A program made the translations under genes and the position numbers. A stretch of 64,000 nucleotides of DNA. Source: Candidatus Krumholzibacteriota bacterium. GTDB taxonomy: Bacteria; Krumholzibacteriota; Krumholzibacteriia; JAJRXK01. The first letter of the stretch is position 1; each line of letters opens with the position of its first letter. The stretch covers positions 1-64,000 of the forward strand of contig JAJDAC010000026.1 of the NCBI GenBank assembly GCA_029262065.1, read 5' to 3'. Below are positions 3,517 to 22,883 of the stretch, piece by piece. The notes beneath the pieces were generated by a model. The model was not told where the DNA came from, searched no databases, and saw only the letters and a program-made list of their open reading frames with translations.

Positions 3517-5763
3517 TCAGCGGGTGTCGGACTTCGTTTCGACTTCGGTGTCGGCCTCGCTGCCTGGCGCATCCAACGCACCCGTCGCACCCGCTTCTCC
3601 ATCGCTGGCCTCGCCAACCGCGGCGTCGCCCGACTCTTCTTCGGGCGGGTAGGCAAACTCGCGAATCACGCGCATCAACATCTGGATCTGTGCGTTGCTG
3701 AAACTGTCGCCCCACGCGGGCATGGTAGCGCTGAGGCCCGCCGCTTCGCCGCCGGCCGCAATAGCCAGGATGATGTCTTCCTCGGCGCGTTGTTCCTGCC
3801 ATTCCACGGTCGAGAAGTCGGGCAGAGGCACTTCGGGATCGTCGTATTCGGCGCCGTCGCCCTGCCCCGTCGCGCCGTGACAACGCGAACAGTTGTCCTT
3901 GAACATCTGGCGTGCCTCGGGCAACGAACCCTGCGGACTCAGACGCGAGACGACCATGGAATCGGGCGGCGCACCACCCGAGTCGACCGCACCGCGAACC
4001 AGTTTCATCAAGCGCCCCGAGGGCTCCAGCTTGCTGCCCAACGTGGTGATGTACACATCGCCGGTGGGCGCTTCCATGAGCGACGTGATACCCATCTGAC
4101 CCAGCTGGTCCGCCCGCGTCAACAGCACCCACTCCTGTTCGGCCCCGTCGTCGATGTCGATGCTGCGCAGCCGGCCCGAGAAGTTGTCGGCAAAGATGTA
4201 CTTACCGTACAGATCGGGATAGCGATCGTCGCGATACACCAACCCACCAATGACCGCGCGCTCGACCGCCGTATGTTCGTAGGCGAAGAACGGTGGCGTA
4301 TCCACGCCAATGGGCGGCGACGGTGGCTGAAAATCCCGGTTCTGTTCGAAGCCCTCGCGGTAGTTCCACTGATGGTTGGTGCCGCGATCGACGATGTTCA
4401 CTTCTTCGTAGAGATCGGCCCCCACCTCGCTGACCCACATCTTCCTGGTCAGCGAGTCGAAGGTCATGCGGTACGGATTGCGGAATCCCAGGGCCCAGAA
4501 CTCTTCCAGAACGCCTTCCTGACCCACGAACGGATTGTCGTTGGGGATGAAGTAGTTCTGCGAAATTCCGTTCTCGGGTTCGCGCGGCGGGGCGTGGCTC
4601 ACGTCTTCGCCCCGCATGTCCACGTCGATCCGGATGATGCCGCTGAAGAAATCGGTGCTGATATTCTGCGGCGTGTTGCGGTCGTTCAGATCACCCATGC
4701 CCAGGTACAGAAACCCATCGGGAACGAACTCCAAGCCGCCGCCGTTGTGAAATCCGGTGCGGTTGCCGGGTTCGATCTCGAACAGAATGGTCTCAGACTC
4801 CAACCGCTCCTGCGGCGTGGCCAACGACAGGTCGAAACGCGACAGGCGATTGTACTTCTCGAATTCCTGCACGTCGGTGTGGTAGACGTACACGTAGCCC
4901 TGGTTGGGCGAATCGGGCACGGCAAAGCGCGGATGGAACGCGAAGCCGGCCGCGCCATCTTCGACGTCGCAGGTGTTCACGCGCTCGGAGAAATCGACCA
5001 GCAGTTCCTTCTCTGGGCTTTCGTTCTTCACGCGATAGATACGCCCGCCGCGTTCCAGCACGTAGGCCGACGTGGCCCCGGGCGTGGGGTAGGCTACTTC
5101 CATGGTCTGCGAAAAACGCAGGCCAGGATACACGTCCACCAATCCCCAGGGCTCGTCGCCGGCACCCAGGAACTTCAGCTTGGCGTTGGTAACGAAGTTG
5201 GCGATGGCCGGATTCTTCTGGTACTGCGTGGCGAAGAACACAGGCGTGACGGCCAGAATGATGACGACCAACGCCGGCACCGAAAACAACGTGCGGCCCA
5301 GCGTGCCCCAGAAGCGCGAACGCATGAGCCAACCCACGTATGATTCGCCGTGGTCCTTGCCCAGAAATCCCAGCACGAAGAAACCCACCAGGTAGATGAC
5401 CACGCCGGCACCAAACGCGGCGGCAAAGAAGTGGGCGCTGAAGACGATTTCGGTGAAGAAGTAGATGAACGTGGCCGAAAGGCTCGACACGCACGTGTAC
5501 ATGAGCAAGCCGGCAATGGTGAACTTGGCGCGTGGCGGCACCGCGTCGCGATTCATGACCAGGTTCAGCAGGAACAGCGGCAGGCCGATGGCCAGATGGA
5601 TGCCCACGAGGTTCAGAAGTACGGGTATCGAAATGGGCGGGTTCTGAACGTGCAGGAACGACTTGGGTAGGATCGCCGTGTCGGCCGACAGCGTACGGCC
5701 AATGACCAACGCCACCGCCAGGTAGATCAGTTGAAGGAGCAGCGCAACGGGCTTGCGATTCAC
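3517..5763 (-). CDS. Membrane-anchored PQQ-type sugar dehydrogenase with C-terminal cytochrome c domain
   Basis: About 748 residues in three parts. Residues 1-185 carry about five hydrophobic helices. Next comes a soluble glucose/sorbosone dehydrogenase propeller with typical blades (GAAGFAFHPRF, FHNGGGLEFVPDGFLYLGMGD, EEFWALGFRNPYRMTFD, WNYREG, YIFADNFSGRLRSI). The last part is a class I cytochrome c with CSRCH and a methionine ligand candidate in TMPAWGD. An acidic low-complexity tail follows. The expected role is periplasmic sugar oxidation with electron transfer through the attached haem. The GTG at 5763 was chosen because AGGAGG lies 11 bases upstream. A further upstream GTG (5835) has no ribosome-binding site and would add 24 residues. 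PQQ dependence is inferred from the family. Confidence 0.85.
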   Translation of the reverse strand: MNRKPVALLLQLIYLAVALVIGRTLSADTAILPKSFLHVQNPPISIPVLLNLVGIHLAIGLPLFLLNLVMNRDAVPPRAKFTIAGLLMYTCVSSLSATFIYFFTEIVFSAHFFAAAFGAGVVIYLVGFFVLGFLGKDHGESYVGWLMRSRFWGTLGRTLFSVPALVVIILAVTPVFFATQYQKNPAIANFVTNAKLKFLGAGDEPWGLVDVYPGLRFSQTMEVAYPTPGATSAYVLERGGRIYRVKNESPEKELLVDFSERVNTCDVEDGAAGFAFHPRFAVPDSPNQGYVYVYHTDVQEFEKYNRLSRFDLSLATPQERLESETILFEIEPGNRTGFHNGGGLEFVPDGFLYLGMGDLNDRNTPQNISTDFFSGIIRIDVDMRGEDVSHAPPREPENGISQNYFIPNDNPFVGQEGVLEEFWALGFRNPYRMTFDSLTRKMWVSEVGADLYEEVNIVDRGTNHQWNYREGFEQNRDFQPPSPPIGVDTPPFFAYEHTAVERAVIGGLVYRDDRYPDLYGKYIFADNFSGRLRSIDIDDGAEQEWVLLTRADQLGQMGITSLMEAPTGDVYITTLGSKLEPSGRLMKLVRGAVDSGGAPPDSMVVSRLSPQGSLPEARQMFKDNCSRCHGATGQGDGAEYDDPEVPLPDFSTVEWQEQRAEEDIILAIAAGGEAAGLSATMPAWGDSFSNAQIQMLMRVIREFAYPPEEESGDAAVGEASDGEAGATGALDAPGSEADTEVETKSDTR

Positions 5764-5883
5764 GGTGGGTAGCGCCTCCTGCGACGTCTTGATCAGGGCG
5801 GTAAAATGACGACCGGGCAAGAAGTTAGCACGCACCGTGCCGGGTCGCCACGACGCCGTTCAGCAGCCTGGACGCTCGGAAAA

Positions 5884-7425
5884 TCAGCGTCCAGCGCCCG
5901 CCGGCTGGCCCAGCATGGGACCGATGTAACTGCGCGCCACCACGATGTTGTCCACGTAGACGTAGCCGTCGGCGGGAATGGCGGCGGTACCGCCGTGGTA
6001 CACATTCATCCACACCTGCTCGATCTTGAGGTCCGCTGTGTTGCGGAAGACCAGATCGGAGCGCTCGAACGCGGGGCGGCCATCCACCCAGCCGCGCAGC
6101 ACGCCGTCGGGCTGGCCCGGCGTGTTGAGCTTCACGAACATCTCAACGCTGTACCAGCGATCGCGCTCGAGGTAACCGCGGTAACCCTGCTGCCAGCCCA
6201 GCCAGTCCCCCCAGGAGCCTTCCATGCCCACGTGGTAGACATAGTTGCCGATGGGAACCACGCCCGACAGCGGATTTCCCTCGGGCGGCGATACCCAATA
6301 TTGTCCGCGGGTGGACCATCCGTCGGCGCCGGTAGCCCTGCGCCCGCCCCAGCCGGCCTTGCCGTAGGTTCCCGCCACGCCCGGAAGCTTGCCGCCAAAT
6401 GAGGGCTGCCACTGCTCGGGAAAGCGGATGTAGTAGCGGAAGTAGATCTCTTCGGGCTCACTACCCACCTCGCGCGCGAACTTGTAGACGAAGTCCATGC
6501 CGGTGTGACCGTTGGCGGGCACCATGCCGCGCAGCGCATGCCCCTGCAACGGCTCGAAGTTGCGCGACTCGTCTTCGCGCAAGCGAGTCAAGATTTTCTC
6601 GTCGGTGCCGTCGGTCCATTGGCGGCCCCAGTTGGACTGCTCGAAGTCGGTGAACAGCACCACGTCGGCGTGGGTCTCGATGCCGCGGTCGAGCGGGAAG
6701 TCGGCGGCGATACCGTAGGTAGGAGATTCTTCGGGGGCATCATGACCGTGCGAACACCGGAACACGCCAATGTCCATGGCGTCACGCAACGCGTATACGT
6801 GCAGCTCCAGCTCAGCGCGCTGGATGGTGGCATCGCCAGGCAGGTCGGACAGATCGAACCGAACCAGTGCCGGATGCCGATTGGAAACCCGCAGGCGATC
6901 TTCGTGGCCGAAGCCCCGGTAGGTGGATGCTTCCAACCAAGTGTCGGCGACGGGCTCAGCCACCTGGTCACCGGCGCTGGTGGAAAGCCGCAGCCGCGGT
7001 CGGACAGTAGCGTCGTCGCTTTCGCGACTGTGGAAGTCGTACGGACCACTGCCCGAAGTAGCCAACAAATAGAAACCACGGCTCGGCACTACACCGCCGT
7101 GCCATTCGTTCACGAGCGAAGTGACGTTCCAGACCACCGCGCGAGGAGTGTCGTCATCTTCCAGGTGAACGGTGGCGTAGGGCTGGTCGCCCCGATAGGT
7201 ACCCTGGGCGTCGTGGTAGTCGCCCATGAGCTCGTTCCATCTCAGGTCGCCGGCGCGGTTGTAGAAGTCACGCGTGGCCCCGGTATCGCCGCCCGTATCG
7301 TCGGCAAACTGGCCCGGGTCGCGCGGAGCGGCCAAACCATGCCCGGTCCAGAGTACGCCCAACGCCATTGTTCCCAGCACCGCCGCCGCCCACATCGAAC
7401 TTGTCGCCAAAGCCCACTCCTTCAT
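5884..7425 (-). CDS. Exported DNRLRE plus polysaccharide-lyase-14-like protein
   Basis: A 513-residue protein with an N-terminal signal peptide or anchor (hydrophobic stretch at residues 10-32). The first half resembles DNRLRE/CBM96-like modules: GVVPSRGFYLLATSGSGP, then DTWLEASTYRGFGHEDRLRVSNR and RFDLSDLPGDATIQRAELELHVY. The second half has the pattern of the PL14-type alginate-lyase-like fold: FRYYIRFPEQW, GGKLPGVAGTYG, YHVGMEGSWGDW, EMFVKLNTPGQPDGVLRGWVDG and ADGYVYVDNIVV. The protein probably binds or cleaves a uronate-rich polysaccharide outside the cytoplasm, but catalytic residues were not verified. No FlgD tail is present. The upstream ribosome-binding site is unclear, and a second ATG lies 10 codons in. 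Confidence 0.7.
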   Translation of the reverse strand: MKEWALATSSMWAAAVLGTMALGVLWTGHGLAAPRDPGQFADDTGGDTGATRDFYNRAGDLRWNELMGDYHDAQGTYRGDQPYATVHLEDDDTPRAVVWNVTSLVNEWHGGVVPSRGFYLLATSGSGPYDFHSRESDDATVRPRLRLSTSAGDQVAEPVADTWLEASTYRGFGHEDRLRVSNRHPALVRFDLSDLPGDATIQRAELELHVYALRDAMDIGVFRCSHGHDAPEESPTYGIAADFPLDRGIETHADVVLFTDFEQSNWGRQWTDGTDEKILTRLREDESRNFEPLQGHALRGMVPANGHTGMDFVYKFAREVGSEPEEIYFRYYIRFPEQWQPSFGGKLPGVAGTYGKAGWGGRRATGADGWSTRGQYWVSPPEGNPLSGVVPIGNYVYHVGMEGSWGDWLGWQQGYRGYLERDRWYSVEMFVKLNTPGQPDGVLRGWVDGRPAFERSDLVFRNTADLKIEQVWMNVYHGGTAAIPADGYVYVDNIVVARSYIGPMLGQPAGAGR

Positions 7426-7526
7426 CGCCGAAATTGCCGCGTTTCATGTGTACAATGCAACGCCAGGGTGGGTTCCGTCGAGACCGGATGTCTGCCACCG
7501 ACCACGCGTCTTTCATTGGAGATCGC

Positions 7527-8255
7527 ATGATTCGATTCCTGACCCTCTTTGCCGTCCTGCTGGCGGCAAACGCAACCGCGATGGCGCAGGAGGACCTGAA
7601 CGGTCCGGTTGTCCTGCAACGTGCCCTGGCCTACCACGACCCCCAGGGCAACTTCATGCAACAGCGCATGCAACTCACATTGCAAACGGGGTACGCCGAC
7701 GGGCGCACGCGGGTGCGCACCAGCCGTGTCGATTTCGCCACGACCGAGTACTCCGACTGGCTGGAGGTCGATGGCGCGCGCGTGGCCCAGATGGTCAACC
7801 AGGGCGAATGCCAGTTCCAAATAAACGGCCATTCCGCCACCGACGAGGAGAAGGAAGAGCACAACCTGACCTGCGACCGCGCGAAAACGACCCGCGACTA
7901 CGTGAGCTACCTGTGGGGACTGCCCATGAAACTCCAGGACCCCGGTACCATCGTGGACCCCGTCGTGAAGCACGCCCAATTCGAGGGCCACGACGTACTG
8001 GACCTGCGCGTAACCTACGATCCCGAAGTAGGCACCGACATCTGGCACTTCTACCTGGACCCCAACACGTACGCCATGCGCGGATACGCGTTCTACAAGG
8101 ATGCGGCAGAGGCGCACGGGGAAATCATCGTGTTGAACGATGAGATAGCCGTGGGTAGGGCACGGGTGCCGAAGGAACGCTCGTGGTACGAGATGCCCGG
8201 ACGCAAGTTCCTGGGTACGGACACATTGCTCGAGGCCAAGTTGATTCCAAGATGA
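7527..8255 (+). CDS. Secreted LolA-like/DUF6503-like protein of unknown function
   Basis: A 242-residue exported protein. The ATG at 7527 follows GGAG by five bases and opens a clean signal peptide (MIRFLTLFAVLLAANATAMA, cleavage before QED). The open frame extends further upstream but without a start signal. The mature part has alternating beta-strand character with pieces such as RALAYHDPQGNF, DYVSYLWGLPMKLQDPGT and the late segment GTDIWHFYLDPNTYAMRGYAFYK. This resembles the outer-membrane-lipoprotein-carrier-like fold of DUF6503 proteins, which are mostly uncharacterised. It is divergent from the DNRLRE/PL14 gene and convergent with the subtilase gene that ends at 8284. Family assignment is tentative. 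Confidence 0.6.
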   Translation: MIRFLTLFAVLLAANATAMAQEDLNGPVVLQRALAYHDPQGNFMQQRMQLTLQTGYADGRTRVRTSRVDFATTEYSDWLEVDGARVAQMVNQGECQFQINGHSATDEEKEEHNLTCDRAKTTRDYVSYLWGLPMKLQDPGTIVDPVVKHAQFEGHDVLDLRVTYDPEVGTDIWHFYLDPNTYAMRGYAFYKDAAEAHGEIIVLNDEIAVGRARVPKERSWYEMPGRKFLGTDTLLEAKLIPR

Positions 8256-8283: not shown

Positions 8284-9525
8284 CTAGTACTGGCCAAACC
8301 GTAACTTGCGTCGATCGAAACGGGGTTCGGGCAGAACCACGATCCTGTACAGCCAGGTCGGGTTGACGCGACCGTCTACTACCGCCTCCACGGGCTGTAC
8401 CGGCACCACGCTGGTCTGCAACAACGCGACGCCCGCCTGACCTGCAATGGGCGCTTCGCCGCTGAGAATCAGGGCAAGCGCGGCCGAGGCCACGGGCGTG
8501 GCCATGGATGTACCCGAGGCGATGGCGCTCTTGTTGTCGGGATATGAACTCTCCACTTCCACCCCCGGCGCGGCGAAGGATACCAACCCCGACCCGCTGA
8601 ACGGGGCCAACGCATCCGCCACGTCGGTCGCCGCCACGCCCACGGTATACGCGTCACTGGCCGGATAGCCCACGGTGCCCGGAGTGTTCCCGGCCGCGGC
8701 CATCACCACGATGCCAGCCGCGTCGAGTTCGACCAGAAAATCGTGGATGACGGGAGAGTCATCGCTGAGCACCAGGCTCAGATTCACGATGTCGGCCTGC
8801 AGTTGCTGCGAGTAGTGCAACCCGCGCGCGAGGTCGTACGACCAACCGTTGCCGTCGTCGTCGAGCACGCGAATGGGAAGTATTGTGGCCTCGGGCGCTA
8901 CACTGGCCACGATGCCCGCCACGTGCGTACCGTGACCGTAGGCCTCGTCGGTGTCGCCGTCGAAGTCGTCGTCCAGCCCGTTCTGGGTTTCTTCCTGACC
9001 CAGGTCGGGCGGAATCTCGCTGGTCATGAGCAGCCGTCCGGCCAGGTGGTCGTGACCGGAATCGACGCCGGTATCCAACACCGAAACCAGGATGCCCATC
9101 CCCTTCGTGGCGGTGTGAGCCAGACCCAGATTCAGATGAGCGAGCGCGGGCTGGGCAGCGATCTCCGAGTCGACCCAATCGCCCTCATGAAAACTCTGCA
9201 GGTAGGTTTCGGGTTCGCTGTAGGCAGTAAGGTGGTTCAGCTGAAGCGCCTTCACGCGAAAGTCCCCCAGCAACAGCACGGGGTCTATCGTCCCCAGCAA
9301 CACGCCCAGCTCGGCGACGGGATCGTACTGCGTAAGCAGCAGCAGATAGTCGAGCGCTACCTGTTGCGCGTCGGCCCCGGCCTCGAAACGCACCAGATAC
9401 TCGGCCACCCCCTTGCCGGAGGCCAGGCGGGTGTCAGGCGGACCCACAGGCGCGTCGCAGGCCGCAAGAACAGCCACGAACAGCGCGAGCACGGCAAGTA
9501 GGTGAAAACACGGTCGTCGATTCAT
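8284..9525 (-). CDS. Lipoprotein subtilisin-like serine protease (S8)
   Basis: About 413 residues from an ATG with GAGG 11 bases upstream. The lipobox LAAC puts the lipidated cysteine at residue 23, so the protease is envelope-anchored. The S8 triad is complete: Asp151 in SVLDTGVDSGH, His198 in GHGTHVAGIV and Ser340 in GTSMATPVASA, with the oxyanion-hole Asn280 (AAAGN). A glycine/aspartate-rich loop just before the catalytic histidine (NGLDDDFDGDTDEAYG) is a likely calcium site. Residues 24-140 look like an inhibitor-type propeptide. It starts 47 bases after the CHAT gene on the same strand, making it the fourth gene of the sigma operon. Its link to CHAT signalling is inferred from position. 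Confidence 0.88.
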   Translation of the reverse strand: MNRRPCFHLLAVLALFVAVLAACDAPVGPPDTRLASGKGVAEYLVRFEAGADAQQVALDYLLLLTQYDPVAELGVLLGTIDPVLLLGDFRVKALQLNHLTAYSEPETYLQSFHEGDWVDSEIAAQPALAHLNLGLAHTATKGMGILVSVLDTGVDSGHDHLAGRLLMTSEIPPDLGQEETQNGLDDDFDGDTDEAYGHGTHVAGIVASVAPEATILPIRVLDDDGNGWSYDLARGLHYSQQLQADIVNLSLVLSDDSPVIHDFLVELDAAGIVVMAAAGNTPGTVGYPASDAYTVGVAATDVADALAPFSGSGLVSFAAPGVEVESSYPDNKSAIASGTSMATPVASAALALILSGEAPIAGQAGVALLQTSVVPVQPVEAVVDGRVNPTWLYRIVVLPEPRFDRRKLRFGQY

Positions 9526-9572
9526 GGAGCTGCGTACCTCGGATTCAAGACTAACACACATGGATGGAGCGC

Positions 9573-12305
9573 TCACTCCACGGCCACGAACGGCGCCCAA
9601 CTGAACGGATGCGGATTGAGCGCCCGCGCCTGCGCACGCGCCCGTCGAGCCGCCACCGTGGCCGGTTCGCCCAGGCCCCACTCGCGGTAGAAATGCCGGG
9701 AATAGGCCTGCGTGGAGGCATCGTCGACCTTCCATAGCGACAGGATCATCTCGCTTGCTCCGGCGTTGAGGCCGGTGGCCACCCAGCCCCCCAATTCCGC
9801 GCCGGGACCTTCGCGGCCCAACCCCGACTCACAGCTGCCCAGGAACACCAGGGCGCCACGCAGGAGTCGTGGTCGCAGGTGCTCGAACCCCAGCCATCCG
9901 TCTTCGAGCTGAAATCCCGACAGAAGCCACTGCTGTCGATGGAAGACGGCGTGGGCCGAGACGTGCAGCACTCCGGTTCGGGCCCGCGCGGACATCAGTT
10001 CGTCGGCGCTGCGCGCCGTGGTCACCGCGACTCCCGCGCGTTCGAGCTCGGCCCGCACGATGCGTTCCTCGGCTTTCGCCCCGGGCGTGGGTCCGTGCAG
10101 CAACATGCCCGTACGCCGCCGCAGAGATCGGCGCGACGACGCCAGCAGCGCCGGATGGGTAATGCGTCGCAGCCGCACGCTCGCGTCCACATCGAGCTCG
10201 GCGATTGCCTCCAGGGGAACGCCGTGCAACCGACCCGACGGAATGAAATAGGCGTGGTCGGACTCAAACCCGATCGGGTCGATCAGACTGGCTCTCAGCG
10301 CATGCAGGATATCGTTCGAACGTTGCGCCGTGCGCTCGAGGAATTCCGGCCGCGCCCCCACCGGCGTGGAAGCCGCGGCCTCGAAAATCATGCGCAATGA
10401 CACCCAGTCGTTGGCCAGCGCGCTCGGAGCCAACGCCAGATCCACAACGTCGACACGGCCATCGGGCCGGAGAACGTGCGCGCGACACTCGCTCGCCGTG
10501 CTATCGAAAATCACCAGCTCCTTGCCGCCAAAGCGCTGCTTCCAGTACTTCATGGGGTGTTCGTCCGACAGCCGGCGAGCCAATCCCACCGTGCGGCGAC
10601 GATCGACCTTCTGCTCAAGATGTGAAAGTTGCTGCCGGAGTTCGCGTGATCTCACGTCGCCGGGTCCCGATTGGTCCAGAATGGTTTCCCGTAGCTGCGA
10701 AATGCGAGTGCGCAGTTCACGGTCGAGGCCGGCGCTGTTGCGGTGCAACAGGTCGTCGAGCAACGCGGCCGAACGGCCCTTCAACACGATGCCGAAAGCG
10801 ATTTCCTTGGCGCGTGGCGACCCGGAATCCAGGACCAGGTCGACCGCGCGGCGATAGAGATCGGCGCGCCCGGCCCGCATGCCCGAGACCAACTCGGGGC
10901 CGGCCACCTCGGGGGCGCGGGCATCGTGCTCGCGCAGGGCGGCCCGCACCCAACGCAGCGCGGCGCGGGTATCACCCGCCTGCGACGCCGCCTCGGACAG
11001 GGTGAGAGCCATCCACGGACGGTCGACCCGGGCCGGATACCGACGCGCGTCGGCATGGGCGCGCTTCGCCAGCCGCGAAGCCAGCGCCGCCCGACCCAGC
11101 TGAAGGTGCGCCAGCGCGGCCACCCAGCGCGCGCGGGGGGCGGCGCCGCGCGGATCGTTCGCGTCGAGGAAGCGTAGCGCGGGCCGGGTCAGCTCGAGCG
11201 CGTTGGCCGCCGCGCCGCGACGAACCAGGGCCATCGCGGTTTCGATCTGCGCCCGGTAGGCAGCGTGCCGGTTGCCCGTTTTCTTCCAGTGCGTGGCCGC
11301 GCGTGACAGCTGAATCCTGGAATCGTGAACGTGGCCCAGATCGGCCAGGATGCGCCCGTGCAAATAGGCAATGTTGGCCAGATCGTTGGTCGATTGCAGC
11401 GATCGGAAGTTGGCGACCGCGTCGCGCGCGAACGACTCGGCCAACTGCGGCGCGCCGAGCGTCATCATGAGGCGGGCCAGGTCGCTTTGCACCGAGCCGG
11501 CGCACGCGTGGGTGCCCAGATCGCTGAGAATGCGATGCAGTTCCTGCAGTCGTTCCATTCCCTGCGCCCAGTTGCCCAAGAGCAACTCGGCCGCGGTCAC
11601 ACCGTACTGCGCTTCGGCCTCCATGGTCAGAAACCCACGTTCCTTATATGCAAGCGACGCCACCTCGAAGTAGCGCCGCGCGGTCTTGTTGCGCCCCTGG
11701 TCCAGAGCCAGCTGTCCCAGGTTGAAGCGGCAGAGGGCAGATTCCCAGTCGCGCCCCTGGGCTTCGAATACACGCAGCGCGTCGGCGTAGCATCTGGCGG
11801 CGGCCGTCGGTTGCCCGGCGCGCTGCCAGACGTTGCCCAGATTGGCCGACAACCGGGCCCGCGTGAGACCGTCGGCCCGCGGCAGCAATCTGCGCGCGCG
11901 GCGGGCGACACTGGCCGCCTCTTCTGCCTCGGACAAAGCGCCCAGGGCATCGACCCATCCCACCGCGGTGGCACCCAACGACGCGGTGTCGCCAAGGCTC
12001 TCGAAGCCGTTCCAAGCCTGTCGGTACAACGAGCTGGCCACGGCCGAATTGCCCACCGTTCGCGCGGCGTGTCCCCGCAGGCGGTACAGGTGGGAGGTCT
12101 GCGCGGCCGTGATCGGAGTGCTTTCTTCGGCCAGACGTTCCAGCACGCGCCAGGCGGCGCCGGCATCGACCCTGGTATGTGCCATCACCAGTTTGCGTAA
12201 CCGTTCGAGGGCGAGATCATCGGGCGTGACCAACGCGCTCCATTGCGCGAACAGATCGTCGTCGCCCGGTCGTCCTCGCAGGTCGCGCGCAAGGGAACGA
12301 GTCAT
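9573..12305 (-). CDS. TPR-repeat protein with C-terminal CHAT (caspase-like) protease domain
   Basis: A 910-residue cytoplasmic protein. Residues about 60-480 are tandem helical hairpins of TPR type, for example GDTASLGATAVGWVDALGAL, and a piece around CYADALRVFEAQGRDWESAL. A linker with coiled-coil character follows. Residues about 600-910 are a CHAT domain (caspase HetF associated with TPRs). The dyad is visible: His785 in LHVSAHAVF and Cys825 in FLGSCESGLG. These are followed by the usual GGWVATGLNAGASEMILSLWKVDD. CHAT proteins are clan CD cysteine proteases or signalling platforms, and the TPRs presumably sense a partner. The ATG overlaps the anti-sigma stop codon by one base (TAATG), so translation is probably coupled. 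The substrate is unknown. The two nearby subtilases are obvious candidates by position only. Confidence 0.9.
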   Translation of the reverse strand: MTRSLARDLRGRPGDDDLFAQWSALVTPDDLALERLRKLVMAHTRVDAGAAWRVLERLAEESTPITAAQTSHLYRLRGHAARTVGNSAVASSLYRQAWNGFESLGDTASLGATAVGWVDALGALSEAEEAASVARRARRLLPRADGLTRARLSANLGNVWQRAGQPTAAARCYADALRVFEAQGRDWESALCRFNLGQLALDQGRNKTARRYFEVASLAYKERGFLTMEAEAQYGVTAAELLLGNWAQGMERLQELHRILSDLGTHACAGSVQSDLARLMMTLGAPQLAESFARDAVANFRSLQSTNDLANIAYLHGRILADLGHVHDSRIQLSRAATHWKKTGNRHAAYRAQIETAMALVRRGAAANALELTRPALRFLDANDPRGAAPRARWVAALAHLQLGRAALASRLAKRAHADARRYPARVDRPWMALTLSEAASQAGDTRAALRWVRAALREHDARAPEVAGPELVSGMRAGRADLYRRAVDLVLDSGSPRAKEIAFGIVLKGRSAALLDDLLHRNSAGLDRELRTRISQLRETILDQSGPGDVRSRELRQQLSHLEQKVDRRRTVGLARRLSDEHPMKYWKQRFGGKELVIFDSTASECRAHVLRPDGRVDVVDLALAPSALANDWVSLRMIFEAAASTPVGARPEFLERTAQRSNDILHALRASLIDPIGFESDHAYFIPSGRLHGVPLEAIAELDVDASVRLRRITHPALLASSRRSLRRRTGMLLHGPTPGAKAEERIVRAELERAGVAVTTARSADELMSARARTGVLHVSAHAVFHRQQWLLSGFQLEDGWLGFEHLRPRLLRGALVFLGSCESGLGREGPGAELGGWVATGLNAGASEMILSLWKVDDASTQAYSRHFYREWGLGEPATVAARRARAQARALNPHPFSWAPFVAVE

Positions 12306-12877
12306 TACGCGAAGGGATCTTCAATGACCAGGGTGCGGTCATCGGCCAGATGGATCTCGAGCTTCCAACCGTGGTCGGACACTTCGTCGATGGTGAATTG
12401 ATCGCCGTCGCGTGTCTGAAGCTCGCAAAGCACGTGATCGGCGTGGGCCAGGACAACGCGGATCGGCCGATCGCCGCCGCGATCCACCCACACCTGCCCC
12501 TGCAGGCGCCATCGGCGTTCGGCCTGGGGCGCGGTGACCAACACACTGAGCTGCACGCCCGGCAGGCTGCGGGCCAGGAAGACGGGCTCGCCGGGACTGG
12601 CCGTCTGTGCGCCCCGGACGTCGGCCAGTTCCCACTCCACCTGTTCCTCGGTCTGGGCGTTGGCTACCGGGCGCATCGACGCGGTCTGCGATTCGATTTC
12701 GTCGAGCAAAGCATCGGGAGGAGACACGAGCGAGCCCACGGCGCCCGCCGACTGCAGGCGACGAATCAGTTCGACTTCACGGCTGCACTCCCCGCACGCC
12801 TCCAGGTGGACGGCAAGCTCCGACGTCTCGTCGCCCGAAACGAACGTCAGCCACTGTTCCCAACTGGGATGTTTCAT
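12305..12877 (-). CDS. Zinc-binding anti-sigma factor (zf-HC2 type), soluble
   Basis: A 190-residue protein. The N terminus has the ZAS motif His24-x3-Cys28-x2-Cys31 (HLEACGEC), used by ECF anti-sigma factors to hold the sigma factor. Residues about 85-190 are strand-rich (PVFLARSLPGVQLSVLVTA, WRLQGQVWVDRGGDRPIRVV). No transmembrane helix is visible, so unlike many anti-sigma factors this one is probably cytosolic. The ATG at 12877 was chosen because GGAGG sits seven bases upstream and because it overlaps the sigma stop codon as ATGA. The longer frame starting at 12925 lacks a ribosome-binding site. Co-translation with the sigma factor suggests a 1:1 inhibitory pair. Confidence 0.85.
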   Translation of the reverse strand: MKHPSWEQWLTFVSGDETSELAVHLEACGECSREVELIRRLQSAGAVGSLVSPPDALLDEIESQTASMRPVANAQTEEQVEWELADVRGAQTASPGEPVFLARSLPGVQLSVLVTAPQAERRWRLQGQVWVDRGGDRPIRVVLAHADHVLCELQTRDGDQFTIDEVSDHGWKLEIHLADDRTLVIEDPFA

Positions 12878-13434
12878 GAGCCGACCTCCGTTGCCTTCAT
12901 GGCCTTCATGAGCTTGGTCAAACATCGCGAGCGCAGGGGTCCAATGGTTCCCCGCGGCATCTCTGTCTTTCGCGCTACTTCGTCGTAGCTCAAGGGCGGC
13001 GAGTGGAAGAACAGGATCCGAATGAGACTGGCGCAGGGTTCACCAACCTCATCGAGGGTCTCCTCCAGTTTGCGCCGCAGGTCCAGATTCTCCACGAACG
13101 CATCGGGCGCCTCGCCCGGATCGACCATTTCCTCGAACGTGCCTTCCACCCACCGCGACCGATCCATCGCGTGCCGGTAGCACAACCGCCGCGTGGCTAT
13201 CGAGAGCCACCCCGGCAATGCGTCGGGCTCGCGAATCCTGGCCAGCGACCGGTACAACTCGATCCAGACCAGCTGGAAGACCTCCTGGGCCGCCTCCTGG
13301 TCGAGGCCGGTACGCAGCGCCATGGTGTAGACCAGCGACTTGTAGCGCTGCATGAGCGCGCGCCACGCATCGTCATCACCATCGAGACACCGCCGCACCA
13401 GCTCAGAGTTGTTCAGATCTTGCGCAGACGACAT
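12874..13434 (-). CDS. ECF-type RNA polymerase sigma factor
   Basis: About 186 residues. Region 2 is seen in LVRRCLDGDDDAWRALMQRY and QEVFQLVWIELYRSLARIREPDALPGWL (core binding and -10 recognition). Region 4 is the helix-turn-helix around LSYDEVARKTEMPRGTIGPLRSRCL. There is no region 1 or 3, as expected for group 4 sigma factors. The ATG at 13434 gives the usual ECF N terminus; a GTG at 13467 would add 11 residues. It is the first gene of the four-gene operon with anti-sigma, CHAT and subtilase. I could not identify an unambiguous ECF-type promoter upstream, so autoregulation is possible but not shown. Confidence 0.9.
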   Translation of the reverse strand: MSSAQDLNNSELVRRCLDGDDDAWRALMQRYKSLVYTMALRTGLDQEAAQEVFQLVWIELYRSLARIREPDALPGWLSIATRRLCYRHAMDRSRWVEGTFEEMVDPGEAPDAFVENLDLRRKLEETLDEVGEPCASLIRILFFHSPPLSYDEVARKTEMPRGTIGPLRSRCLTKLMKAMKATEVGS

Positions 13435-13600
13435 GGCAACTCGGCCGATTGAGTGGAGAGGGGGCACCTACAGCCATGCCATTGTACGCGACCTGGCCGC
13501 GCAATGCAGGTAACGAGGCCCTGCAGCTGGCACCAAGCACCCTCCTCTCCGGCAAATCGACTCGCCGCTCTCATACCCCAGGGGCCTCCCAGGGGCGGCT

Positions 13601-13699
13601 GGATACAGGCCCGGAAATTTTTTTCGTAAACCGCGCTTCTTGTGTATCCGGACGGAGGGTTGTTTCCCCCAGTGGGTACCTGTGGTCGATACGTCGACC
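13601..13699. promoter_or_regulatory. Dyad-symmetry elements in the divergent sigma/subtilase intergenic region
   Basis: Two inverted repeats lie in the 296-base space between the sigma factor and the secreted subtilase. GGATACA at 13601-13607 is matched exactly by TGTATCC at 13643-13649. GGTCGA at 13684-13689 is matched by TCGACC at 13694-13699. Between the first pair is an unusually AT-rich run (AAATTTTTTTCGTAAA). The region must hold promoters for both directions, but no clear -35/-10 pair was identified, so the regulatory role is a guess from position and symmetry. Confidence 0.3.
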
Positions 13700-13730
13700 G
13701 CCTCTTCCCAACCCATATGAAGGGTCAACC

Positions 13731-16676
13731 ATGAAATCTCTCGCACGGAACCTCCTGTGCCTGGCCATACTGGGAGCGTTGCTCGCGCACGCTCCCGCCG
13801 CGTTCGCGTGGTCGGACGGCAACGGCAACAAGATCGACGACCAGATCGAGGCCGTCGACCAGAACGGCATTGCCACCGCGTTCGAGAACAACGACATCAA
13901 CCAACGCATGCTCATCGCCGTGTTCGACCTGCCCGCGCTGGAGTACGGCGTGTACGTGGGTTACGACCACCACCCCACGCTGGCCGACGAAACCGCGCTG
14001 CAGTTGGCGGCCGGAGCCGGGGCTCCCGTGAAGACGTATGCGTCCATCGACTACACGCGAACGCAGGCAACGTACGCCGAGATCCAGACAATCGCGGCGT
14101 TGCCCGGTGTAACCCGCGTGGAGTCGATCCCCATGATGTATCCCACCAACCATGTGGGCAGCCGCGTGGTGCGTGCGCGCGACTCGCGCGGTCTGCGCAG
14201 TTCTGAAGACTTCGTTCTGTTCCCCAGCACCCGGGCCGACATGGGCCTGGACGGCACCGGCGTCGTGGTGGGCATTCTCGACACCGGTGTCAACGACGAA
14301 GCCGACGGCATCACCCCTTACGCGGGGCACGAGAGCCTGTCCGGCAAGTTCCTCGGTGGCGGCGAATTCTACGCCGGCGACCCCCTGCTCAACACCCCCA
14401 CCAACCAGAGCGTCAACCCCAAGGATCGCGGCCCCGACACCTGGCACGGTACGCACGTGGCCGGCTCGGCCATTGGCAACGGTGGCCAGACGGGCTTCTT
14501 CTCGGGCGTCGCGCCTGCGGCACGGCTGGTGGACTGCAAGGTGCTGTCCGATGCCGGCGTGGGCTTTGGCTCGGCCGACGGAGTCGACTGGTGCATCGTG
14601 AACATGAACAACGATTGGGGCCTGACCGGACCCGATCTGATCTACTCCGGAATAGACGTGCTGAACCTGTCACTGGGTTGTCTGGACTGCAGTGGTGACG
14701 GCACCACGGCCAGTGAACTCATCATCGACGCCGCGGTCGACGCGGGCCTCATAGTATGTATCGCCACGGGCAACGACGACGCGATCAACCAGATCGGCAG
14801 CCCGGCTTCGGCCGACAAGAGCATTGCGGTGGGCGCGGCGGCCACCCAGGGTTCGCTGACGCGCACCGACGACGCCGTGACCAGCTTCTCGAACGAGGGA
14901 CCGCGCGCCAGCGACGGCGACGCCGACCTGTTCGACGAGTACAAGCCGGCCGTGGTGGGTCCGGGCGCGGGCATCATCTCGGCCAACGGTGATCCGTACA
15001 CCACATCGGGTGAGGCTTACCACACGTTGTCGGGCACCAGCATGTCCACGCCGCACGTGGCCGGTGTCTGCGCGCTGCTACGTCAGGCCGATCCGGCGAT
15101 CGACGGCATGACGGTGCGGTCGATTTTGCAGAACACGGCCATCCATCATCTGCCCAGCGAGAAGGGATTCCGGGCGCCGGATCCGTCGGGCATCGATTCC
15201 AACTACAGCCCCATGAGCGGCTGGGGCATGGTCGACGCATACGCGGCGGCCAAGGAGGTCATGAACAGCACCAGCGGCGCGCAGGTGGTTCGCATCCGGG
15301 CCATCCCCCGTCCACTCGACGGTGAAATCGACGTGCTGTGGTGGAGCCAACGCGAGTACACCTTCGACGGTTACAACGTGCACCGCGCGCCCGACGTGGG
15401 CGGTAGTCCCGGCGTCTATAGCCAGGTGAACGTGGGCCTGATTGCTCCCGTCGGCGATCCCGTGATCGAAGACGATGGCAACCGCACGCCCTATGCGTTC
15501 GTGGACAACGATCCCGCGCTGACACTGGGCCAGGCGTACTGGTACCAGATCGAGTGGGTCGAAAGCGGTGTAGGTACGCTGGAACCGGCCATTCCGGTCG
15601 AGTTCGGCGAACAGCCGCCCGTCGCCACGGTGTTCTACAGCATCAAGCACAACGCACCGGACAACGATCTGTTCGTGCGCATCGGCACGAGCAGTTCGTA
15701 CGATCCCGACGGTGCCCAGTACTTCACGCTGGGCGAGGGCGAAGGCGCCACCGACGAGATCATCCTGCACGAACCGGCCAACGCCGGAACCGCCACCACC
15801 GGGTACCTGGAGCACCTATGGTCTCGCACGTTCTTCGTGGCTGATGGTGTGCAGGGTTTCCTGCCGCCGTCGCAGGGCAGCCCCTGGTTCCTGGACGTAG
15901 CCGACGCCGGCTTCATCAACCGCACTGGTACTGTGGAGTCATTCAGCATGTTCGTGAACGATTCGCCCGGTTCTTCCAGCGGTACGACCTACGTGACCGA
16001 CAGCATCGTGCCGTCGCCCACGCTGGACCAGTTCGTGGTACCCGGGTTCACGGCCACGCTATGGATCCCTGAGCAGACGCCGGTGGCCACGACCGTTCTT
16101 CGCATGAACGCCGAGGGCATGGACGGTGCGGTTCGGATTGGCCTGGATCTTTCGGAGCCCTCGCCTGGGTCGCGCGCGCACGTGGCACGCGGTCTGACCC
16201 ATGACTTCGCGGCGCGAACGGTCCTGACCGGAGAACCGATCGAGTTTGACGGCACCCGGTTCGAGTACGTGGACCGCGAGGTCGTTCCCGGCACCGCGTA
16301 CTGGTACTGGGTGCGCCTGGAGCAGGCCGATGGTCGCGTGATCATGAACGGACCGGTCAACGCCAAGGCCAAGGGAACAACTCTGACCTTTCTGGCGGCG
16401 CCCCAACCCAACCCCGTGAGCAGCAGCAGCAGCGTGGCCTACGCCATTGGCGCCGACCAGGCGAGCAACGGCGCAGTGCCGGTGTCGATCACGCTGCACG
16501 ACGCGCGTGGCCGCAAGGTGCGCACGTTGAAGCAGGGTTCAGCCAGCGCAGGACGCTACAACGTGCACTGGGACGGCGCCGACGAGACGGGCCTTCCCGT
16601 ATCGCGAGGCGTGTACTACGTGCAGTTCCGCGCCGGCAACCATACTTCCAGTTCGAAGCTGGTCGTGGTCAGGTAG
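13731..16676 (+). CDS. Large secreted subtilisin-like protease (S8) with FlgD-like C-terminal tail
   Basis: A 981-residue exported protein from ATG 13731 (AGGG upstream; signal peptide MKSLARNLLCLAILGALLAH..., cleavage near AFA/WSDG). The S8 domain has Asp184 (VGILDTGVND), His239 (WHGTHVAGSAI) and Ser437 (LSGTSMSTPHVAG). Fibronectin-III-like strands follow at about 525-625 (YTFDGYNVHRAPDVGG). A convertase P-domain-like block lies at about 640-760. The last 85 residues form a FlgD-Ig-like tail (VSITLHDARGRKVRTL, YNVHWDGADETG, RGVYYVQF) ending in KLVVVR. It is divergent from the sigma/anti-sigma/CHAT/lipoprotein-subtilase operon and may be part of the same regulon; the shared function is inferred. 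Confidence 0.92.
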   Translation: MKSLARNLLCLAILGALLAHAPAAFAWSDGNGNKIDDQIEAVDQNGIATAFENNDINQRMLIAVFDLPALEYGVYVGYDHHPTLADETALQLAAGAGAPVKTYASIDYTRTQATYAEIQTIAALPGVTRVESIPMMYPTNHVGSRVVRARDSRGLRSSEDFVLFPSTRADMGLDGTGVVVGILDTGVNDEADGITPYAGHESLSGKFLGGGEFYAGDPLLNTPTNQSVNPKDRGPDTWHGTHVAGSAIGNGGQTGFFSGVAPAARLVDCKVLSDAGVGFGSADGVDWCIVNMNNDWGLTGPDLIYSGIDVLNLSLGCLDCSGDGTTASELIIDAAVDAGLIVCIATGNDDAINQIGSPASADKSIAVGAAATQGSLTRTDDAVTSFSNEGPRASDGDADLFDEYKPAVVGPGAGIISANGDPYTTSGEAYHTLSGTSMSTPHVAGVCALLRQADPAIDGMTVRSILQNTAIHHLPSEKGFRAPDPSGIDSNYSPMSGWGMVDAYAAAKEVMNSTSGAQVVRIRAIPRPLDGEIDVLWWSQREYTFDGYNVHRAPDVGGSPGVYSQVNVGLIAPVGDPVIEDDGNRTPYAFVDNDPALTLGQAYWYQIEWVESGVGTLEPAIPVEFGEQPPVATVFYSIKHNAPDNDLFVRIGTSSSYDPDGAQYFTLGEGEGATDEIILHEPANAGTATTGYLEHLWSRTFFVADGVQGFLPPSQGSPWFLDVADAGFINRTGTVESFSMFVNDSPGSSSGTTYVTDSIVPSPTLDQFVVPGFTATLWIPEQTPVATTVLRMNAEGMDGAVRIGLDLSEPSPGSRAHVARGLTHDFAARTVLTGEPIEFDGTRFEYVDREVVPGTAYWYWVRLEQADGRVIMNGPVNAKAKGTTLTFLAAPQPNPVSSSSSVAYAIGADQASNGAVPVSITLHDARGRKVRTLKQGSASAGRYNVHWDGADETGLPVSRGVYYVQFRAGNHTSSSKLVVVR

Positions 16677-18167: not shown

Positions 18168-20468
18168 CTATTTGCGCCCCAAGAGGAAACTCGCCAACGC
18201 CGGCAGCACCAACAGCGCCCCCAGCATGTTCGCCACGAACATGAACGTCAGCAGAATACCCATGTCGGCCTGGAACTGCAGGTCAGACCAAATCCACGTA
18301 CTCACACCGGCCGCCAGAGTCAGCGCGGTAACCAACACCGCGTTCCCCGCTACCTCGAGCGTCTTGCGATAGGCAACCCGCAACGAATCGCCGTCTTTCA
18401 GGTACCCCTGCATGCGACCAAATATATAGATGCCGTAATCCACGCCAATGCCCACCCCCAACGCCGCCACCGGCAACGTGGTGGTCTTCAACCCAATCTG
18501 CAGCAGACTCATGAGCGCGTAGGCAAGTATCGAAACCACCGTCAGCGGCAACACAATGCAAACCGTAGCCCGCCACGACCGAAACGTAATAAGGCACAAC
18601 AGCGAAACCGCGGCGTAGATGTACACCAGCATGGGAATCTGCGTAGCCTCCACCACCTCGTTGGTCGCGGCCATCACACCCACGTTACCCGTAGCCAAAC
18701 GGAACGTGTGCTGCTCAGAGTCATTGGCCGCCGCAAACACCTTCACCGCCGCCGTCACCCGCGCAATGGTTTCGGCTTTGTGATCGTCCAGGAAGATCAT
18801 GACCGGCATCACGCTACAATCCGAACTCAACAAGCCCGTGGACGTTTCCACCGGCGTAACCGCCTGCGAGAGCGAGGCCGCATTGCGCGGCAACACGCGC
18901 ATTTTCAGGTGACCCTCGTTCCAGCCTGAGTTGATGATCTTGGCCACCTGCGGTAGCGAGATGGTCGACTGCACGCCCGGTACGTTGGCAATCTCCCACT
19001 GGAAGCGGTCGATGGTGTCCATGATCTCGAAGTCGACGCAGCCGTCGGGCACCGTTTCCACGATGGTGGTAATGATGTCCAGGCCAATGCTGAACTTGTC
19101 GGTAATGACGGCCGAATCGTGGTTGTAACGCGACTCCGGACGCAGTTCGGGCACGCCGCGATGCACGTCGCCAATGGCCTGGTTGCGACTCTCGAAGAAT
19201 CCCCAGATCGAAATGAGCACGGCCACCACCAGGGTTGTGGCCGCTCGACGTGGAGATACGAAGCCTTCCAACGAGTCCCAGACCCGCCCCTTCCAGCGCG
19301 AGCGACTCACCACACGGTCGCGGTAACCGGGGCTGAGCCGCACGTAGCTGAGCAGAATGGGCAGCAACACCAGGTTGGTGACAATGGTCACCATGACACC
19401 CAGGCTGGCGGTAATGGCCAGCTCCTGGATGATGCGAATGGAAATGAGCAGCAGCGTAAGAAAACCAATGGAATCGCTGAGCAGCGCGGCCACGCCGGGC
19501 GTGACCAACGCGCGAAACGCCAGGCGCGCGGCGTCTTTGGGCGCGGTGCCCTGGATGATCTCGGTCGCCACCGAGTTCACCATCTGCACACCGTGCGACA
19601 CGCCGATGGCAAACACCAAGAAGGGAACCAACAGCGACATGGGGTCCAGGCCGTAGCCCAAAGTGGTCAGCAGACCCAGGTTCCACACCACGGCAATGAT
19701 CGAACAGAACAATGGTAGCACCGTGAGCCGCACCGAGTGCGTGAACAGGTAAACCAATACCAGCGTAATGAGAAACGCGATGCCGAAGAACACCACCACG
19801 CCGGTGGCGCCGTTGGCGATGTCGCCCATCATGCGCGCGAAGCCAATGATGTGGATGTCGATGCCGTCGCGCTGGTACTTCTCGCGGATCTCGCTCTCGA
19901 GCAGATCGGCCACTTTCAGATAGTCGAGCCGTTCACCGGTGGCCGGGTCGATCTCCACCAACTGCGCGGTAACCATGGCGGCCGTGAAATCTTTGGCCAC
20001 CAGGCGCCCCAGTGTGCCCGACTTCAGGATGTTCTCGCGCACCTGGGCCAGGGCCGTTTCGTTGGGCTGGAAGTCGGCCGGAATGACGTTGCCGCCGGTA
20101 AACCCGCCCTCGACGATTTCCACGAACCGCACGTTGGGCGTAAATATGGACTGCACCGTGCTGCGGTTCACGCCGGGCAGAAAGAACACCGCGTCGGTAA
20201 CCTTGTCGAGCGTTTCGAAGAACTCGGGGGTGAAGATGTCGCCGTCTTCGGCCCGCACGGCAATGAGCAACCGGTTGGCGCCGCCGAACTCGGCCATGTG
20301 CTCCAGGAACGTCTCGATGTACCCGTGTTCCACGGGCAGGAGCTTCTCGAACCCCGCGTCGATACGAATCTTGGTGAGCTGGAACCCGAAGAACGCGGTA
20401 AGCGCGATCAGCACCACCAGTACCAATCGGCGTGAACCGAAGACCAGCTTCTCCAGGAACGCGGTCAA
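18168..20468 (-). CDS. MMPL/RND-family membrane transporter
   Basis: A 766-residue inner-membrane protein with two repeated halves. Each has one N-terminal helix, a large periplasmic loop and a five-helix MMPL bundle. The first bundle includes GVVVFFGIAFLITLVLVYLF and the second GVGIGVDYGIYIFGR, the characteristic RND helix-4 region with charged residues for proton coupling. It resembles hopanoid/lipid-type MMPL exporters rather than AcrB. The TTG start overlaps the stop of the YCF48 gene (TTGA). It is the last gene of the DUF1302-DUF1329-YCF48-MMPL set and probably exports a hydrophobic compound; the cargo is unknown. Confidence 0.88.
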   Translation of the reverse strand: MTAFLEKLVFGSRRLVLVVLIALTAFFGFQLTKIRIDAGFEKLLPVEHGYIETFLEHMAEFGGANRLLIAVRAEDGDIFTPEFFETLDKVTDAVFFLPGVNRSTVQSIFTPNVRFVEIVEGGFTGGNVIPADFQPNETALAQVRENILKSGTLGRLVAKDFTAAMVTAQLVEIDPATGERLDYLKVADLLESEIREKYQRDGIDIHIIGFARMMGDIANGATGVVVFFGIAFLITLVLVYLFTHSVRLTVLPLFCSIIAVVWNLGLLTTLGYGLDPMSLLVPFLVFAIGVSHGVQMVNSVATEIIQGTAPKDAARLAFRALVTPGVAALLSDSIGFLTLLLISIRIIQELAITASLGVMVTIVTNLVLLPILLSYVRLSPGYRDRVVSRSRWKGRVWDSLEGFVSPRRAATTLVVAVLISIWGFFESRNQAIGDVHRGVPELRPESRYNHDSAVITDKFSIGLDIITTIVETVPDGCVDFEIMDTIDRFQWEIANVPGVQSTISLPQVAKIINSGWNEGHLKMRVLPRNAASLSQAVTPVETSTGLLSSDCSVMPVMIFLDDHKAETIARVTAAVKVFAAANDSEQHTFRLATGNVGVMAATNEVVEATQIPMLVYIYAAVSLLCLITFRSWRATVCIVLPLTVVSILAYALMSLLQIGLKTTTLPVAALGVGIGVDYGIYIFGRMQGYLKDGDSLRVAYRKTLEVAGNAVLVTALTLAAGVSTWIWSDLQFQADMGILLTFMFVANMLGALLVLPALASFLLGRK

Positions 20469-21448
20469 CGGTTGGCCTCCCCGTCCAATTGCAACGTAAT
20501 GACGCCGTGCTCACCCGCGGCCAACAGCCCGCGATGGGTGTCGATTACCGAAGACAACCCCACCCTGTCTTCGCGCGATCGGTTGACGAACGTGCGGCCG
20601 GTGTCGGTACTTTCCAGCACCGCGCCCGAGAGTCCTACCAGCACCACCGTACCGTCGCTGCGCAGACATCCGCCCAGAAGACCGAACGTGACGTTGGTGG
20701 GTACCTTGACCCAGTCGTTCCCCGCATCTTCCGATCGGTACACGTTTCCCCGCAGGCCAAACGCAAGCAGCGTGGAGTCGGCCACCGGCAGCATTCCGAA
20801 GAACGTTCCCCGGTACGGCGAGGGCAACTTCGTCCAGTTTTCTCCCTGGTCGTCCGAACGCATCAGGGTGCCGAACTCCCCGGCCATGTACAGCGAGCCC
20901 GATGGCGCGCGCGCCAGGTCGAAGAAGTGCGGCCCCTCTTCGTCGATGTCGCGTTGGTTCCAGGTGGCGCCGCCATCGCTGGTGGCCAGATAGGTTCCGT
21001 AGGCGCCCACGGCGATCCCGCGCAGTTGGTCGGCGAACCACACGTCGAACAACGGAGCTTCGTCTTCAACGGCTTCGTATTGAACGGCCCAGTTGGCTCC
21101 GCCGTCGCCGCTGAACAGAACGACGGAGTCGTGACCCACCGCCCAAGCGCGATCGCCGACCGTCGCCACCGCGCACAATAGACTACGCACGGGAACGACA
21201 ACCTGGGTCCACCGCTGACCATCGGGCGAAAGCAACACGTGTCCGCGCTCGCCCACCGCCAGGTAGCCATCGCCCATCTCGGCAACATCGAGCATCAGGG
21301 ATCGGGCCGCGAGCGGCGCCAGGGTCGAGGGTTCGCCGGCCCACAACGCAGAAGGCCCTGCCCCCAACAGGGACAGGACCAACCAGATCACGAAACACCG
21401 GGATACGATCACACCAGGGCGCGGAACAGGCAACTGGACCCGGTCCAC
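20465..21448 (-). CDS. Exported YCF48/BNR-repeat beta-propeller protein
   Basis: About 327 residues with a signal peptide (FVIWLVLSLLGAGPSALWAG, near residues 20-38) and a propeller of repeats in which a G/D-W motif recurs: SPDGQRWTQVV, SGDGGANWAVQ, TSDGGATWNQR, SDDQGENWTKL, SEDAGNDWVKV, STDTGRTFVNR. This is the pattern of the photosystem II assembly factor YCF48 and sialidase BNR repeats. It sits 13 bases after the DUF1329 gene and overlaps the MMPL gene, so it is probably a periplasmic partner of the transporter. The start is a GTG at 21448; a GTG at 21412 is possible. Confidence 0.82.
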   Translation of the reverse strand: MDRVQLPVPRPGVIVSRCFVIWLVLSLLGAGPSALWAGEPSTLAPLAARSLMLDVAEMGDGYLAVGERGHVLLSPDGQRWTQVVVPVRSLLCAVATVGDRAWAVGHDSVVLFSGDGGANWAVQYEAVEDEAPLFDVWFADQLRGIAVGAYGTYLATSDGGATWNQRDIDEEGPHFFDLARAPSGSLYMAGEFGTLMRSDDQGENWTKLPSPYRGTFFGMLPVADSTLLAFGLRGNVYRSEDAGNDWVKVPTNVTFGLLGGCLRSDGTVVLVGLSGAVLESTDTGRTFVNRSREDRVGLSSVIDTHRGLLAAGEHGVITLQLDGEANR

Positions 21449-21461
21449 GCCGCGGCCCCGA

Positions 21462-22826: not shown

Positions 22827-22883
22827 GAGCTTCTCCCTTAAGCAGCCTCGTACTCAGTCACTGAGCTAGCGGCCGGGCAAGCG

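Follow-up and report, generated by a model that had tools for sequence, protein, structure and literature searches.

A gene cluster in the first 64,000 nucleotides (hereafter the window) of contig JAJDAC010000026.1 from a Candidatus Krumholzibacteriota bacterium (assembly GCA_029262065.1) encodes an extracytoplasmic function (ECF) sigma factor, an anti-sigma-like protein, a tetratricopeptide repeat (TPR)-CHAT cysteine protease, and subtilases of peptidase family S8. Sigma, anti-sigma, TPR-CHAT, and S8 genes form a genuine recurrent module in at least four phyla. The conserved gene set, its co-inheritance, the compartments of its products, their invariant residues, and a promoter motif shared by sigma and S8 genes were all computed. 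As a whole, the module may be a self-contained protease-to-transcription relay, which is given an even chance of being correct. The five genes of the window are as follows.

12874 to 13431, minus strand: ECF sigma factor of 185 residues, the first gene of the operon (TIGR02937, 2.3e-16; Sigma70_r2, 1.9e-9).
12305 to 12877, minus strand: anti-sigma-like protein of 190 residues with a zinc/helical N-terminal part, a linker, and a C-terminal beta domain (from profile and model).
9573 to 12305, minus strand: TPR-CHAT cysteine protease of 910 residues with a TPR solenoid and a CHAT domain at about 595-909 (PF12770, 6.5e-24).
8284 to 9525, minus strand: exported S8 lipoprotein (subtilase), a proposed sigma output, with a lipobox and an intact triad (PF00082, 1.8e-36).
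13731 to 16676, plus strand: secreted divergent S8 protease of 981 residues with a FlgD-like tail (PF00082, 4.9e-44; FlgD_ig, 7.8e-10).

All of the gene positions, overlaps, and spacing given by a first-pass annotation of the window were confirmed, as was the divergent S8 gene with its FlgD tail. The anti-sigma start overlaps the sigma stop (ATGA at 12877-12874), TAATG at 12307-12303 links the end of the anti-sigma gene with the CHAT start, and a gap of 47 bases separates CHAT from the S8 lipoprotein gene. The sigma factor has the architecture of ECF proteins, with regions 2 and 4 only, region 2 scoring over the Pfam cut-off and region 4 under it. At most module loci, a sigma gene of this type precedes CHAT.

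The 5.77-Mb genome yielded 26 CHAT matches, including eight full-length copies, of which the seven besides that of the window share 30 to 38% identity with it, and one more distant copy (28%). Sigma and anti-sigma genes lie directly upstream of CHAT in seven of the eight full-length copies, whose neighborhoods were read, and an S8 gene lies beside CHAT in all eight. The S8 gene is downstream on the same strand in the window and at loci L015, L016, and L021, convergent at L017, L018, and L020, and divergent from the sigma gene at L019, so that the linkage of CHAT and S8 outlives rearrangement. The distant copy, L028, also has an S8 gene, plus two sigma genes. An S8 neighbor is present for 9/9 module-clade CHATs versus 1/17 other CHATs of the genome (Fisher, 3e-6); many of these 17 have a signal peptide, and nearly all of them are without module neighbors. 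The diverged copies in one genome suggest parallel channels that may serve differing cues or targets. At L028:4959-11650 and L092:3934-10356, the CHAT-S8 pair is flanked by two opposite-strand sigma genes, one or both of which are followed by an anti-sigma gene, and a single protease possibly serves two sigma factors there. In addition, a sigma/anti-sigma pair at the start of contig C5 of the same genome (L074:4212-5227) has the invariant Arg described below and no adjoining CHAT or S8 gene, and it could answer to a CHAT located elsewhere in the genome.

For the comparison across bacteria, loci were picked by CHAT alone, and the neighboring genes were therefore unselected; neighbor counts were restricted to loci flanked by 2.5 kb or more on either side, and the sampling did not extend to Myxococcota and Chloroflexota. 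The module recurs in the remaining members of its family (L022-L027, L092) and in a genome from a different family of that class (L093), as well as in sampled Acidobacteriota and Planctomycetota. In the small phylum of HKST-UBA01, CHAT occurs in 5/5 genomes, mostly with other module genes where the contig permits. Sigma, anti-sigma, and S8 genes accompany CHAT at 13, 13, and 13 of 14 family loci (all three at 12), at 25, 25, and 24 of 32 Acidobacteriota loci, some with CHATs outside the module clade (all three at 22), and at 13, 19, and 20 of 22 Planctomycetota loci (all three at 12). The corresponding counts for 13 loci of other CHATs from the genome of the window are 0, 0, and 1, with all three at none. 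The linked gene set is thus kept in at least four phyla. Both refuting conditions named in the first-pass annotation clearly fail, as the neighbors are not random with respect to CHAT, and CHAT and S8 genes co-occur.

A FastTree phylogeny built from 116 CHATs has a branch, with support 97, that unites 87/88 linked CHATs with a single unlinked one, L290. This Planctomycetota protein (L290:4510-7851) has Arg in place of the catalytic His and Thr in place of the catalytic Cys, and none of the module neighbors is present. Other Planctomycetota loci (L262, L266-L273) lack a sigma gene and carry CHAT beside a single S8 gene or a tandem array of up to four, and beta-domain proteins adjoin them at most of these loci. 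Distance matrices of the paralogues within the genome of the window are correlated for CHAT and sigma (0.86) and for CHAT and anti-sigma (0.61), and the CHAT-S8 correlation is not significant (r=0.40, p=0.13). Within the family, p was at most 0.05 for every pair of protein distance matrices; in Acidobacteriota, the correlations range from 0.35 to 0.73, with r=0.67 for CHAT-S8.

The CHAT model (predicted local distance difference test [pLDDT] score, 84.4) has its best solved relatives in the Craspase TPR-CHAT, Csx29, separase, and DdvA, and the protein shows the caspase-like fold and His-Cys dyad of clan CD CHAT peptidases. The following residues are central to its proposed activity.

9951 to 9953, minus strand: catalytic His785, kept in 91/92 module CHATs.
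9831 to 9833, minus strand: catalytic Cys825, kept in 91/92 module CHATs.
9720 to 9722, minus strand: Asp862, a proposed S1 acidic residue at the position of separase Asp1082, kept in 92/92 and starting helix 862-876 of the model.
10068 to 10070, minus strand: Glu746, a proposed second S1 acidic residue, kept in 93/93 and located in the first helix after strand 732-737 of the model.

His781 is essentially invariant, as are these four residues. Modeling of separase assigns recognition of the P1 Arg to two acidic residues, one following the first strand and one where a later helix begins (PMC4626109). Glu746 and Asp862, which were placed against these residues by secondary structure and not by superposition, are proposed to lie at matching positions. 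No PADLOC defense model matches CHAT, and only subtilase and IetS models match the S8 proteins; no defense label is therefore applied.

Judged from its sequences, the "anti-sigma" protein belongs to a family specific to CHAT, many members of which have lost the zinc part. Two of its features are important here.

12785 to 12808, minus strand: zinc anti-sigma motif H24-x3-C28-x2-C31, not kept by all family members (from sequence).
12614 to 12616, minus strand: codon of the invariant Arg88, with a proposed CHAT cleavage site at Arg88|Gly89 (from conservation; in a low-confidence linker of the model).

The window protein has no Pfam match and a weak NCBIfam "antisigma" match (8e-4). It carries the H-x3-C-x2-C motif in an N-terminal helical domain, as in zinc anti-sigma (ZAS/zf-HC2) proteins, and the motif is missing in about half of the 34 aligned family members. 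The family profile matches solved RsiW (5wuq, 1.3e-4) and ChrR (2q1z, 0.007). The C-terminal beta domain, which weakly resembles carboxypeptidase-regulatory and NOMO domains, is constant in the family. The zf-HC2 label of the first-pass annotation is right for the zinc motif of the window protein, but the conserved part is the beta domain with its invariant Arg, not the zinc domain. A fold search with the whole model returned generic beta-sandwich matches only (E of at least 0.005). No homology to Csx30 was found, as neither the family profile nor the model matches Csx30, a PDB entry. The family occurs in 27/297 Acidobacteriota genomes, 26 of which also have CHAT (p=4e-28 as counted, with CHAT in 36 genomes and with a somewhat biased test, since the profile was built almost wholly from CHAT-linked members); in the 27th genome the module is present and cut by the contig end, giving 27/27 with CHAT.

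The position of Arg88 is the most conserved of the family, with Arg in 34/34 sequences of the family alignment and in 83/84 over four phyla; in 67 of the latter set, the next residue is Ser, Gly, or Ala. In the AlphaFold model (pLDDT, 84.9), Arg88 falls where confidence is lowest, in the segment that links the helices to the main beta strands. Together, this invariant Arg, the CHAT dyad, and both acidic residues suggest that CHAT makes an Arg-specific cut in the anti-sigma protein at Arg88.

Among 52 S8 copies, the Asp, His, Ser, and oxyanion Asn residues that mark peptidase family S8 are kept in 52, 51, 52, and 52, respectively, and nearly all copies have a signal peptide or lipobox. The catalytic residues of the proteases are complete, as had been noted, with Asp/His/Ser in S8 and His785/Cys825 in CHAT. 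A hydropathy scan revealed neither an export signal nor a membrane segment in sigma, anti-sigma, or CHAT. From these signals, CHAT and the anti-sigma protein look cytosolic and S8 looks exported, and S8 is therefore more likely to be a sigma output than a CHAT substrate.

The regions before sigma and S8 genes have a common motif, GTATC[A/C][A/G]-N16-C[A/C]C[C/T], of the kind that the first-pass annotation had proposed to look for. The window contains two such sites.

13580 to 13606, minus strand: promoter-like site before sigma, GTATCCA-N16-CCCT, used with seven others to train the weight matrix.
13644 to 13670, plus strand: promoter-like site before the divergent S8 gene, GTATCCG-N16-CCCC, with a score of 13.7, which is reached by 1.3% of controls.

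Matched variants occur within loci, with GTATCAA and CACC twice at L024, GCATCAA and CCCT twice at L026, and TGTATCC and CCC twice in the window. A weight matrix was derived from the eight sigma sites and tested, at a cut-off score of 13, on S8 regions outside the training set. Scores of at least 13 were found before 7/22 S8 genes versus 6/389 control genes (6e-7), for a motif that was chosen after inspection of the data, the GTATCA block having been aligned by eye. The high-scoring S8 genes include L064 and L073, which are away from any module, and L027, which is downstream of CHAT with a site of its own. The recurrence of a sigma-trained motif before S8 genes, including unlinked ones, makes S8 look like a sigma output, and the divergent S8 gene of the window is, by its upstream sequence, likely to belong to the same regulon. 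Exact enumeration of spaced words in the upstream regions performed no better than shuffles, and the strict pattern gave 8 matches genome-wide versus 4 in the reversed control; only four sites are convincing, three of them at two module loci and the fourth 75 bp upstream of a lipoprotein gene. Several top-scoring controls encode exported proteins, mostly beside modules. Exported proteins or lipoproteins with a high-scoring or matching upstream motif are encoded at L015:4668-6548, L019:4501-5127, L021:11647-12243, and L218:1576-2754, and they are candidates for further regulon members.

In the mechanism that we infer, the cytosolic anti-sigma-like protein would hold the ECF sigma factor in the resting state, and a cue, probably sensed via the TPR solenoid, would activate the CHAT cysteine protease. 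CHAT would cut the anti-sigma protein after Arg88, separating the sigma-binding part from the beta domain. The freed sigma factor would transcribe its own operon (autoregulation) and would also drive the expression of exported proteins (mainly subtilases and small lipoproteins) from GTATCAR-N16-CMCY promoters, with the exported subtilases as its output rather than as a CHAT substrate. The subtilases may serve in envelope stress, competition, phage defense, or predation. The signaling chain first suggested for this locus is retained in its linked gene set, in CHAT acting most plausibly on the anti-sigma protein, and in a sigma factor that may control a protease regulon, but not in CHAT acting on a subtilase.

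The relay is favored by the conservation, co-inheritance, compartment, and motif data above, and also by the catalytic death of the only unlinked CHAT in the module clade and by the fusion of anti-sigma and CHAT in one protein in DdvA (8rot). Several observations weigh against it. The zinc part is missing from roughly half of the anti-sigma family, so that not every member can be assumed to bind sigma, and a subclade in Planctomycetota combines CHAT, S8, and beta-domain proteins without sigma, so that the CHAT/beta-domain pair can work without it. The S1 acidic residues are kept equally in CHATs outside the module, which supports the chemistry but not the pairing of CHAT with the anti-sigma protein. 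The invariant Arg is at times followed by Asn, Asp, His, Tyr, Arg, or Pro, as would be expected of a structural residue more than of a strict cleavage site. Without the divergent S8 genes, the p value of the motif test rises to 0.005, and no shared motif was obtained for L017, L020, and L025. CHAT might control the anti-sigma protein by binding instead of cutting, as a scaffold or in a partner switch, with Arg88 as a docking residue or a structural residue of the beta domain. The non-small residues after Arg88 agree with this, as does the persistence of Arg88 in beta-domain proteins without sigma or the zinc part and in the L074 pair. Binding alone is nevertheless unlikely, though with a real chance of holding, since a pure scaffold would not need the dyad, which is kept at the rate given above, and the sole dyad-less CHAT has also lost the entire module.

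Another explanation makes CHAT mainly an effector, which sigma induces together with S8 and which cuts other cell proteins in self-killing or defense, the beta-domain protein being its inhibitor or adaptor. The presence of CHAT in the sigma operon is compatible with this, as are some Planctomycetota loci that combine CHAT, beta-domain proteins, and several S8 genes without sigma. However, sigma and anti-sigma genes are kept at most loci, a comparable protease or CHAT part is tied to sigma control in each of DdvA, Craspase, and Calp, and CHAT matches no PADLOC defense model. Only a small chance is left to this explanation as a whole. A protease cascade, in which CHAT directly cleaves or activates the subtilase, would account for the adjacency of CHAT and S8 at nearly all loci and for their co-diversification in Acidobacteriota, but the separate compartments and the nonsignificant correlation among paralogues make it very improbable. 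Common descent of a neighborhood, with no functional link, could explain many copies from one ancestral cluster; it is hardly credible for a set that spans four phyla, retains S8 beside CHAT in downstream, convergent, and divergent positions, and contrasts with the solitary other CHATs of the genome.

Among protease-released ECF sigma factors, the module resembles the Craspase, Calp, and DdvA/DdvS systems in outline, with at least one tested defining feature unmatched in each case, and it is therefore placed as a separate variant. The Craspase system (type III-E CRISPR: Cas7-11, Csx29 TPR-CHAT, Csx30, CASP-sigma) shares a TPR-CHAT protease with a His-Cys dyad, and the CHAT profile matches Craspase (8d9f/7x8a, 3e-14) and Csx29 (7y9x, 6e-10). 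The substrate cleaved by Craspase is an ECF sigma inhibitor, and cleavage relieves the inhibition (PMC10028731). The substrate is Csx30 there and a small anti-sigma/beta-domain family here, the equivalent of Asp862 is replaced in Craspase in the alignment, and the output of the module is exported subtilases. Moreover, Craspase cuts the nonconserved sites A|S, L|D, and M|K (PMC11106740), whereas the module anti-sigma protein has one invariant Arg. CRISPR-type direct repeats were not found in window positions 1 to 26000, and no Cas model matched the five module proteins or the scanned flanking genes, the rest of the genome not having been searched for Cas7-11. DdvS/DdvA of Myxococcus xanthus comprises an ECF sigma factor and an anti-sigma protein that contains a TPR-CHAT-like region, and it is reported to regulate a CRISPR-Cas system (Bernal-Bernal 2018). 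DdvA is matched by the CHAT model (8rot) and weakly touched by the anti-sigma profile (8rlz). DdvS is active once DdvA is inactivated (PMC4374960). DdvA is a single transmembrane chain fusing anti-sigma and CHAT, whereas the module has separate overlapping genes and no membrane segment, with S8 in addition. CalpL-CalpT-CalpS of type III CRISPR differs in its Lon-SAVED protease, which is activated by cyclic oligoadenylate, and in having no exported protease.

Separase (clan CD) is the best structural match of the CHAT model, with two acidic S1 residues at apparently matching places and Arg at P1 as in the proposed cut, but it is a eukaryotic cohesin protease of an unrelated pathway. RsiW/ChrR-type zinc anti-sigma proteins share the N-terminal helical zinc part; RsiW is membrane bound and ChrR has a cupin, whereas the module protein has the C-terminal beta domain with the invariant Arg. 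Literature searches on CHAT with sigma and subtilase retrieved nothing relevant, and no paper on the four-gene set was found. The module may be a CRISPR-free sibling of Craspase, perhaps ancestral, in which a separase-like, Arg-specific TPR-CHAT cuts a dedicated anti-sigma protein at one Arg in at least four phyla, with eight or nine parallel channels in one genome, each driving its own exported subtilase; this is put forward tentatively, at somewhat short of an even chance. Release of sigma factors by CHAT proteases has been described in CRISPR-linked systems of unclear origin. If correct, the proposal would link CHAT proteins to extracellular proteolysis, give a lead on the origin of Craspase, and allow a simple two-protein assay for CHAT protease action, and it offers a function for a gene set expanded in little-studied phyla.

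Other genes of the window include an exported protein that adjoins the module (5884-7368), with DNRLRE/CBM96-type repeats and a polysaccharide-lyase-14 domain, and a DUF6503 gene (7488-8255) convergent with it. A glucose/sorbosone dehydrogenase domain is fused with a cytochrome c domain at 3517-5835. The region 18168-24707 contains a large transporter gene (766 residues, resistance-nodulation-division-like by eye) near YCF48-like, DUF1329, and DUF1302 genes, and transporter clusters of similar appearance are found near further module copies (L018:13768-18224; L025:8982-12208).

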